Below, in pieces: positions 26,854-28,979 of a DNA stretch of 64,000 bases (position 1 is the stretch's first letter; each line of letters opens with the position of its first letter). The DNA is taken from assembly GCA_002840435.1 (NCBI GenBank), contig PHAT01000002.1:266696-330695 (forward strand), written 5' to 3'. The notes under the pieces were generated by a model. It saw nothing but the letters and a program-made list of their open reading frames with translations. It was not told the origin of the DNA and did no database searches. Made by a program: the position numbers and the translations under genes. The stretch is from Deltaproteobacteria bacterium HGW-Deltaproteobacteria-6 (lineage in GTDB: Bacteria; Desulfobacterota; Syntrophia; Syntrophales; Smithellaceae).

Positions 26854-27390
26854 TTAAAGCTGAATTAATTTACCAAATTCCTGAGTAAAAATGTCATAGA
26901 TTCGTTGATCAAATAAAACGTGGCGGATGAGTTGAATCTCCGTGTGCTTCCGGGCAAATTCCATGCAGGAAGCGAGCGCCAGATGAGCGGCTTCCTGCGT
27001 TGGATAACCATAAATGCCGCAGCTTATAGCCGGAAAAGAAACGCTTTGCAAGCCATACTTTACGGCCAGCTTCAGACTGCTTGTGTATGCCGACGCCAGC
27101 AGCTCTGCTTCGCCATGGCCGCCGCCCCGATAAATCGGCCCGACCGTGTGAATGACGTATCGCGCCTTGAGGTTGCCGCCTGTTGTGATGACGGCATGGC
27201 CTGTCGGACAGCCTCCTATTTTGCGGCATTCCTCCATGATGGCCGGCCCGCCGGCGCGGTGAATGGCGCCATCGACGCCGGCGCCTCCCGCGAGACGGCT
27301 GTTCGCGGCATTGACGACGGCATCCGTATGCTCCTCCGTGATGTCTCCTGTGACCAGTTCGATGAGCGTTTGATGAAATGTTGCCTTCAT
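26854..27390 (-). CDS. Macro-domain ADP-ribose hydrolase (YmdB/MacroD type)
   Basis: The 178-residue macro domain has all MacroD-type signatures: LVTGDITEEHTDAVVNAAN, the GGAGVDGAIHRAGG loop, TGHAVITTGGNLKARYVIHTVGP and FPAISCGIYGYP. These enzymes remove acetyl from O-acetyl-ADP-ribose or ADP-ribose from acidic residues. It is placed between gpmI (5 bp away) and the histidine kinase (3 bp), so probably one transcript. Confidence 0.92.
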   Translation of the reverse strand: MKATFHQTLIELVTGDITEEHTDAVVNAANSRLAGGAGVDGAIHRAGGPAIMEECRKIGGCPTGHAVITTGGNLKARYVIHTVGPIYRGGGHGEAELLASAYTSSLKLAVKYGLQSVSFPAISCGIYGYPTQEAAHLALASCMEFARKHTEIQLIRHVLFDQRIYDIFTQEFGKLIQL

Positions 27391-27395
27391 TTATT

Positions 27396-28979
27396 TCACT
27401 CTATGGAGATTTTGTTTCCTTCCCCGTAAACCAGCATCCGGTAAGTTTTTTCAATCCGGTCCCAGTTGTCTTCTCGATCCATGGACCAGTAGCGGCCGAT
27501 GACGGATACCACCTGACCCAGCTCAAGCGACAGACATTTTTCTTCCACCTGATGAATATAGTTGGCGCCGCTTTGGGCCTGTTCGCCGCGCCGCCCCAGC
27601 ATGCCGTGAATATACAGTCGCGGGACGCCCTGCTTCCTGGCCATCTCCATTAAGGCAAAGAGATGTTCAATGGAGCCATGTGAACTGAAAAAAGAGACAA
27701 TACCCATCAGATGGAGGGCCGTGCCGTTTTTTTTCGCCAGGTTCATTACGTTCATGAAGGCCTGGTTTTGATGAAAATCGCCGCAGGCGATGGACTGATC
27801 AATATTGAGGCGGTCGGAATAAATCCGGCGGCCCGCGCCCATATGCAGATGCCCGGCTTCGGAATTACCCACCGTTTTCGGAGGTAATCCAACGGCAACG
27901 CCCGATGCGGCCAGCAGCGCCGAAGTATGGTTCTTCCGTAAGGCGTCCATTACCGGTGTTGCGGCGCAGGCGATTAAGTTGCCTTTTGTGTTTTCACAAA
28001 AGCCCCAGCCGTCGAGAATAATCAGCAACAAACGCGGGACCGGTACGAATGATTTTTTGTCCTGTCTGAGCAGTGAAGCACCGGTCATTGAAGCGGGCGT
28101 GGGCAAACCCAGAATATCCAGAATGGTCGGAGCGATATCCGTCAGCTCTCCTTCCGGCTTCAGGGTCAGCGTTTTATCCGGGTGCAGCAGAATAAACGGT
28201 ACGGGGCTGTCCGTGTGTCCGGTATCCACGCCTCCGTCCGGATACAGCCATTTTTCCACCGTGCCGTGGTCGGCCGTGACGATGACCGCCACATTCTGTT
28301 TCCGCGCTTCATCAATCAGGAGGCCTGCATGCCGGTCCACTGCCTGGATGGCCCGGAGCACCGCCGATTCATTTTCAATGTGGCCGACAACATCCACATT
28401 CGGGAAATTCACGACCGTAAAATTGCAGCGAGGATCTTTAATTTTTCCAACAGCCGCACGTGTTATTTCTTCAATGGACATCTCCGGCGCTTCATCAAAC
28501 AGTTTGACATCCTTGCGCGTCGGGATGACGATTCTTTCTTCTCCCGGCAGCGGGTCGGATTTCTTGCCGTTGAAGAAAAAGCTGACGTGGACGGCTTTTT
28601 CCGCTTCCGTTATTTTAGTCTGGGTTAATCCATGTTCTGCAATAACGTCGCTCAGCGTATCGGAAAGAACGCCCTGGGGCGGAAAAGCAACTGCGACGTT
28701 TAATCCTTTCTGATACTCGATCATGGTCGCAAAGTTAACCGGGAGGTTTTGATCAACCGGGAATTCACGGAAAGTTTTTTCCGTAAAGCTGCGGGTCAAT
28801 TCAATTTCGCGTTCACCGCGGATATTGTAAAAAATGACTGAATCACCCGAATGGATTCTTCCCAGAGGGTCGTTTTGCCGGTTGACCAGGACCAATGGAA
28901 GGAGGGTTTCGTCTTCTTCGCCCCGGGTATAGGCGTTACGGACTGCAAGCGACATAGGAAACTTGTTTTCAGAGTGCAT
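27396..28979 (-). CDS. gpmI: Cofactor-independent phosphoglycerate mutase with circularly permuted order
   Basis: This 527-residue protein contains every block of cofactor-independent phosphoglycerate mutase, which interconverts 3- and 2-phosphoglycerate, but in swapped order. Residues 1-305 correspond to the usual C-terminal part (YNIRGER with Arg54 and Arg57; Lys128 in TEAEKAVHVSFFF; NVDVVGH 194-200; TADHG 235-239; GHTDSPVP 254-261). Residues 312-527 correspond to the usual N-terminal part (DGWG 323-326; phospho-Ser373 in VGNSEAGH; His434; RYWSMDRE 496-503). The break falls inside the transferase domain, and the normal termini are joined by a short linker. The usual DGRD motif reads GRRG here (462-465). 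It opens a four-gene operon. Confidence 0.88.
   Translation of the reverse strand: MHSENKFPMSLAVRNAYTRGEEDETLLPLVLVNRQNDPLGRIHSGDSVIFYNIRGEREIELTRSFTEKTFREFPVDQNLPVNFATMIEYQKGLNVAVAFPPQGVLSDTLSDVIAEHGLTQTKITEAEKAVHVSFFFNGKKSDPLPGEERIVIPTRKDVKLFDEAPEMSIEEITRAAVGKIKDPRCNFTVVNFPNVDVVGHIENESAVLRAIQAVDRHAGLLIDEARKQNVAVIVTADHGTVEKWLYPDGGVDTGHTDSPVPFILLHPDKTLTLKPEGELTDIAPTILDILGLPTPASMTGASLLRQDKKSFVPVPRLLLIILDGWGFCENTKGNLIACAATPVMDALRKNHTSALLAASGVAVGLPPKTVGNSEAGHLHMGAGRRIYSDRLNIDQSIACGDFHQNQAFMNVMNLAKKNGTALHLMGIVSFFSSHGSIEHLFALMEMARKQGVPRLYIHGMLGRRGEQAQSGANYIHQVEEKCLSLELGQVVSVIGRYWSMDREDNWDRIEKTYRMLVYGEGNKISIE

Follow-up and report, generated by a model that had tools for sequence, protein, structure and literature searches.

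Cofactor-independent phosphoglycerate mutase (iPGM, GpmI; TIGR01307; structures 1ejj and 4nwj) is the closest described system to the gene analyzed here. The archaeal-type phosphoglycerate mutases (ApgM; TIGR00306) have the same metal core, and phosphopentomutase (DeoB) belongs to the same superfamily and carries a different cap domain; both have the canonical block order, as does, to our knowledge, the rest of the superfamily. Reports of natural permutants among the enzymes of central metabolism are, as far as we know, rare. Glutathione synthetase is unrelated to iPGM in fold and reaction. In its eukaryotic form, passages of a published study describe a natural circular permutation that hid the relationship of a metabolic enzyme (PMC2876114). 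For the iPGM of Bacillus stearothermophilus (Bst), passages of another study list nine substrate contacts, namely, S62, H123, R153, D154, R185, R191, R261, R264, and K336 (PMC3886921). The gene studied here lies in a window of 64,000 nucleotides, by which we mean the whole stretch of DNA that was analyzed, and it is almost certainly a circularly permuted gene of the iPGM family. Its product resembles canonical iPGM in the two-domain fold, the metal ligands, the serine, and eight contacts, and differs in the order of its halves, in the motifs GRRG(E) and SF(F/Y)SSHGS, and in the substitutions N447T, D263E, and A265E (Bst numbering).

The original prediction of an intact 527-residue frame in which the normally C-terminal half comes first was borne out. 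The frame of 527 codons (527 aa) is on the minus strand, with the ATG at 28979 and the stop codon at 27398-27396 (Table 1). A phmmer search against the PDB aligned residues 12-304 of the protein with 1ejj 219-509 (i-E 2.6e-59) and residues 317-522 with 1ejj 6-211, the latter without gaps (i-E 6.5e-53). Likewise, TIGR01307 (iPGM, EC 5.4.2.12) matches the protein in two separate stretches, of which the best pairs residues 12-304 with profile positions 216-504; their summed score is 474.9 bits, against a curated cut-off of 330.65. The cut-off of the stricter profile NF003897 was missed (402 versus 862). Among the Pfam domains, Metalloenzyme (best stretch, 99-293) precedes iPGM_N (best stretch, 393-523), and the match to Metalloenzyme (PF01676; 1.8e-54) places the protein in the alkaline phosphatase superfamily. 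The protein fell short of TIGR00306, a profile of 403 positions, with 36.7 bits for a cut-off of 320 and a weak match at residues 170-268, and its sequence match to DeoB was low. An alignment of the two halves with iPGM in normal order would have contradicted the permutation; the canonical N-to-C block order was absent from the profile, phmmer, and structure alignments. Within this single frame, residues 7-305 correspond to 1o98 214-510 and residues 313-524 to 1o98 2-213. In an alignment of 50 permuted sequences, the linker region, bounded by the columns that hold residues 303 and 318, spans 11-19 residues. One permuted homologue (L129:8001-9722), apparently the same gene as that on contig C36 of G153, joins the old termini by a linker that is much longer.

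Table 1. Features of the permuted gene and its surroundings (window coordinates)
Feature	Position	Strand	Basis
Permuted iPGM-family gene, 527 codons	27396..28979	-	ORF, Pfam, TIGR01307, phmmer
First half, residues 7-305 = iPGM ~214-510 (canonical C-terminal half)	28065..28961	-	phmmer, VIA
Linker, residues 306-312, old C terminus to old N terminus	28044..28064	-	phmmer, structure, alignment
Second half, residues 313-524 = iPGM 2-213 (canonical N-terminal half)	27408..28043	-	phmmer, VIA
D196 and H200 = Bst D403, H407	28380..28394	-	kept 88/88
TADHGT with D237 and H238 = Bst D444, H445	28260..28277	-	kept 88/88
H255 = Bst H462	28215..28217	-	kept 88/88
D323 of DGWG = Bst D12	28011..28013	-	kept 88/88
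Nucleophile S373 = Bst S62	27861..27863	-	kept 88/88
SFFSSHGS, residues 429-436, replaces SDGGVHSH; H434 = Bst H123	27672..27695	-	family-specific
GRRGE, residues 462-466, replaces DGRD and the next residue	27582..27596	-	alignment
Macro-domain gene, 5 nt downstream	26854..27390	-	conserved neighbour in Syntrophales-type loci

An AlphaFold2 model built on 50 permuted sequences (pLDDT 91.5, pTM 0.87) was compared with known structures. The structural search with the whole model aligned the first half alone to iPGM: residues 7-305 matched the 1o98 chain at 214-510 with a Z of 22.1, and similar values were obtained with VIA for 1ejj (Z 22.0, 293 aligned residues, rmsd 7.6) and for the Staphylococcus aureus iPGM 4nwj (Z 21.8, 292 aligned residues, rmsd 2.1). 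This is expected, since the aligner preserves chain order, and the second half was therefore modelled alone, with fewer sequences than were used for the whole model. This isolated half (pLDDT 70.3) matched the 1o98 chain at 2-213 (VIA Z 11.6, 200 aligned residues, rmsd 3.7); its lower pLDDT would fit the idea that the phosphatase domain of the first half is completed by the second. Superposition on the Bst enzyme thus gave two blocks that match in swapped order and between them account for the parent chain; the cut lies near Bst 213/214. Structural matches at Z 8.1-11.1 included DeoB, alkaline phosphatases, and sulfatases, and the phosphatase domain aligned with the DeoB structure 3m7v over 173 residues (Z 11.1, rmsd 3.0).

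With the domain boundaries of the Bst enzyme, which we take to be 76/77 and 310/311, the phosphatase domain becomes one uninterrupted segment (residues ~103-387), flanked by the two parts of the transferase domain at the chain ends. If the protein folds as the model predicts, the chain would start in the transferase domain, cross the whole phosphatase domain, and end in the transferase domain. Through the permutation the two domains thereby exchange the roles of insert and host, the phosphatase domain now being the insert. Sequence and structure alignments agree with the earlier proposal that the new ends fall inside the transferase domain and that a short linker joins the old ones. The permutant is also a natural experiment that asks if the iPGM mechanism, with its two hinges and its domain closure, survives a re-cut inside the transferase domain.

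Full-length permuted homologues were found in 60 of the 155 genomes of the class, all of them in one taxonomic order, and pieces of the gene in six more (G058, G098, G101, G107, G127, and G153). In a sample of 395 genomes of the phylum, full-length copies occurred beyond this order in G155, G210, G229, G245, G274, G301, and G348, and the matches listed included a permuted fragment in G325. We further scanned genome contigs using six peptides of the window protein as seeds, which is not a census, and retained the best 80 of 81 loci. A single match covered more than 440 of the 527 residues in 77 of these 80; L129 is complete and has the long linker, and contig ends truncate L130 and L132. By record label, the 80 loci represent about ten phyla plus one archaeal chromosome, the bacterial labels being Syntrophales, other deltaproteobacterial, Chloroflexota, Aminicenantes, Zixibacteria, B38, Armatimonadetes, Eisenbacteria, Neomarinimicrobiota, Planctomycetota, Polyangiaceae, and Chitinispirillaceae. 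The permutant is rare in the phylum of G535 (labelled Chloroflexota): of 400 genomes, two had it at E 1e-90, G535 itself included. The homologue on the archaeal chromosome, labelled Methanomassiliicoccales (L124; CP070739.1), has 53% identity. This chromosome encodes ribosomal protein S28e, which was absent from six bacterial genomes searched alongside and which, among control genomes, was present in the four archaea and in none of the bacteria. The archaeal copy may have been acquired by transfer from bacteria.

We regard an assembly or annotation artefact that fused two genes as having a negligible probability. The carriers are, by their record titles, mostly metagenome assemblies, which would leave room for such an error; against it stand the recurrence of the same arrangement in independent assemblies (the 60 genomes above, including the one-contig genome G084 of 3,179,300 bases, and the single archaeal chromosome record), the similar linker length across 50 sequences, and purifying selection on the gene (dN/dS of 0.10-0.16 between the window gene and seven close relatives). 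Together with the E-values and the many full-length homologues, these dN/dS values exclude chance.

Trees were calculated from 35 permuted sequences, thinned by identity, and 39 canonical ones (38 plus Bst), with L129 left out. In the tree of the whole alignment, made with a quick method and unrooted, a single branch separates the permuted from the canonical sequences (SH-aLRT 100; stem 0.95). The permuted form again made up one branch when each half was analyzed separately (FastTree; L160 left out as a long branch). For the canonical copies typical of Syntrophales the stem is longer still (1.47), and a program warning flagged that long branches meet at this place. The permutation probably had a single origin, putatively by tandem duplication of an iPGM gene followed by trimming, and the direction from canonical to permuted is taken from the canonical order of the superfamily, since the tree is unrooted. 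The permuted gene would then have spread patchily across phyla: branching inside the permuted group does not follow the phylum labels, which suggests transfer, although labels of metagenome-assembled genomes may be wrong.

To compare active sites, we aligned 88 permuted with 47 canonical proteins, with non-ATG starts written as M. The permuted set was reduced from 122 extracted sequences by dropping near-identical copies and includes P0001. The canonical set consists of Bst and 46 others, mostly from one phylum (42 from matches in the phylum, the class, and relatives, 2 from G546 and G553, and 2 from the assembly of the window). The window residues R54, R57, K128, D196, H200, D237 and H238 of TADHG, H255, D323 of DGWG, and S373 align with their Bst counterparts, as had been proposed from the sequence; we take D196, H200, D237, H238, H255, and D323 to be the metal ligands (Bst D403, H407, D444, H445, H462, and D12). 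The equivalents of D12, S62, H123, R153, R261, R264, and K336, and those of D403, H407, D444, H445, and H462, are identical in 88/88 permuted proteins, so that the two-metal site and the nucleophilic serine are complete in all of them. The equivalents of R185 and R191 are kept in 87/88. Eight of the nine published substrate contacts are thus kept, and Asp154 alone is lost, being Gly in 88/88.

The changes on the side of the pocket around Asp154 are equally uniform. The replacement of DGRD by GRRG, noted at the outset, holds throughout: GRRGE is invariant in 88/88 permuted proteins and DGRD in 47/47 canonical ones, and D151G, G152R, and V/T155E are thus fixed around D154G. In the same way, the SDGGVHSH loop of Bst, which is less strict among canonical proteins (D119 in 43/47, H125 in 30/47), reads SF(F/Y)SSHG in 88/88 permuted proteins with H123 kept. 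Further fixed or nearly fixed changes include A461G, M404V, A24L, and N68H, in addition to the three substitutions named above. One side of the pocket rebuilt uniformly, with the chemistry retained, is the pattern that a substrate change would leave in the sequences, and it may reflect one.

Most carriers have another phosphoglycerate mutase. A second, canonical gpmI was sought in the assembly of the window and two were found (G000:C5:113891-115453 and G000:C16:5725-7281, the latter on a short contig of 8,120 bases). Both carry DGRD and SDGNVHSH, are about 32-35% identical to the permutant, and represent a divergent type found in other Syntrophales; the assembly also contains three apgM matches. 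Among the 66 permutant-bearing genomes of the class, 63 encode another phosphoglycerate mutase (either a canonical iPGM or a match to ApgM or dPGM that exceeds the cut-off, which for G069 and G111 was inferred from the E-value). Of the other three, G002 (69% complete; E 2.7e-71) and G005 (88%; E 5.5e-71) match apgM only more weakly, and G058 (85%) has no other phosphoglycerate mutase over any cut-off. At least 19 genomes of the class encode canonical iPGM in addition to a full-length permutant, and apgM exceeds its cut-off in 136/155. Elsewhere, 32 carriers were taken as lying outside the order by record title and identity, and 29 of these have another phosphoglycerate mutase over the cut-off (27 apgM, canonical iPGM in G546, and dPGM in G549). 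In G544 apgM is below the cut-off, and in G555 and G556 none of the other types searched was found; completeness is unstated for these 32 genomes. No other canonical iPGM over the cut-off was detected in 30 of the 32, including G538, which has a fragment of 58 positions. Syntrophus aciditrophicus has three archaeal-type iPGMs, according to passages of Foster et al. (PMC2964296).

We consider it reasonably probable that the protein is a two-metal phosphomutase of the phosphoserine type, circularly permuted and altered in its substrate specificity. It would act as an intramolecular phosphomutase in which the phosphate of the substrate passes to S373 and from there to a different oxygen of the substrate. 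Since the DGRD/SDGGVHSH side of the pocket is rebuilt alike in all members and most hosts have another phosphoglycerate mutase, this substrate would not, or not mainly, be 2- or 3-phosphoglycerate; judged from the sequences, a distinct one is likely. The name phosphoglycerate mutase in the original prediction is therefore right as to the iPGM family and goes beyond the evidence as a plain label, given the loss of one of nine contacts and the usual presence of another such enzyme. Against this stand the eight contacts that are kept, with which a phosphoglycerate mutase isozyme is possibly compatible, and the carriers lacking another phosphoglycerate mutase over the cut-offs (3/66 and 3/32). A permuted but otherwise ordinary 2-/3-phosphoglycerate mutase isozyme, in which E466 or the additional R463 replaces Asp154 and the redundancy is incidental, is a possible but less probable explanation. 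E466 adjoins the lost aspartate in sequence and might stand in for it, the summed score exceeds the TIGR01307 cut-off, and most carriers outside the order lack another canonical iPGM, G555 and G556 lacking every other type searched. An isozyme is harder to reconcile with the glycine that invariably replaces Asp154, a substrate contact according to passages of PMC3886921, with the further fixed changes around it, and with the frequency of apgM over the cut-off (136/155 and 27/32). It is improbable that the protein is instead a hydrolase in which the phosphoserine forms and its phosphate is released to water, the acceptor-side contact Asp154 being gone. Complete retention of the phosphatase-domain residues, with one side of the transferase pocket altered, would suit such an enzyme, whereas a plain phosphatase would have no need of H123 and the arginines on the transferase side, which 87-88 of 88 proteins keep.

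For the favoured phosphomutase with its own substrate, the balance tips slightly towards a new enzyme family, a permuted phosphomutase of the alkaline phosphatase superfamily found in at least one archaeon and in bacteria of several phyla. Uniform rebuilding of the pocket leads us to predict a phosphomutase substrate that has not been described. If this is true, the family has been hidden because profile searches would name the permutant gpmI: as its summed score exceeds the TIGR01307 cut-off, annotation pipelines would probably do so, and it may be miscounted in phosphoglycerate mutase profiles and in metabolic models built for syntrophs and other anaerobes. The original prediction knew of no description of the permutant, and full-text searches likewise showed none of a permuted iPGM among the papers listed; as most subscription journals and bioRxiv lay outside their scope, one may nevertheless exist. 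The same applied to searches combining permutation with the alkaline phosphatase superfamily, glycolytic enzymes, or the Pfam names. Two texts that pair phosphoglycerate mutase with permutation terms were unrelated in the passages retrieved, and no word beginning with "permut" occurs in the main text of Foster et al. (PMC2964296), as far as available, in an iPGAM paper, or in the accessible part of a 2025 glycolysis review.

Neighbouring ORFs were clustered for 75 of the 80 loci, the permutant being unplaced in L081, L084, L089, L110, and L114. Widely common neighbours in Syntrophales-type loci include the macro-domain gene, pcm, a LysM/M23 peptidase gene, and CarD; outside these loci, the clusters shown are common to only three related loci each, and none of the neighbours in the 75 loci that is conserved across phyla points to a substrate. 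The macro-domain gene directly follows the permutant in 43 of the 46 loci that are at least 59% identical to the window protein and have downstream sequence, at 8-152 bases by tblastn ends. It is missing in L058, L080, and L129; L130 stops at the contig edge; and it was absent from the other 33 loci, where the sequence stops within 8 bases in two cases and within 290 in three. Since conservation extends to the surrounding genes, this pairing may reflect shared synteny rather than function.

In three loci (L112:6867-9554, L113:6695-9554, and L116:2953-8739), the permutant adjoins related sulfotransferase genes that are 65-75% identical; CysD and CysNC are encoded in L116 and a PAP-phosphatase-like gene in L112. 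These loci have different lineage labels, yet each derives from a Zod_Metabat bin. Among 80 genomes (65 carriers and 15 members of the order without a full-length permutant), the sulfotransferase matched seven at E 1e-10, all of them carriers, and only the genomes of these three loci reached at least 65% identity. Sulfotransferase/PAPS was thus rejected as a general substrate clue, close relatives not being found in the other carriers tested, and is retained as a lineage-specific lead. In another three loci (L097, L099, and L101), a GT4-like glycosyltransferase, which fell below every NCBIfam cut-off with no equivalog named, is encoded directly upstream of the permutant; the three proteins are 486-491 aa long and 88-92% identical.
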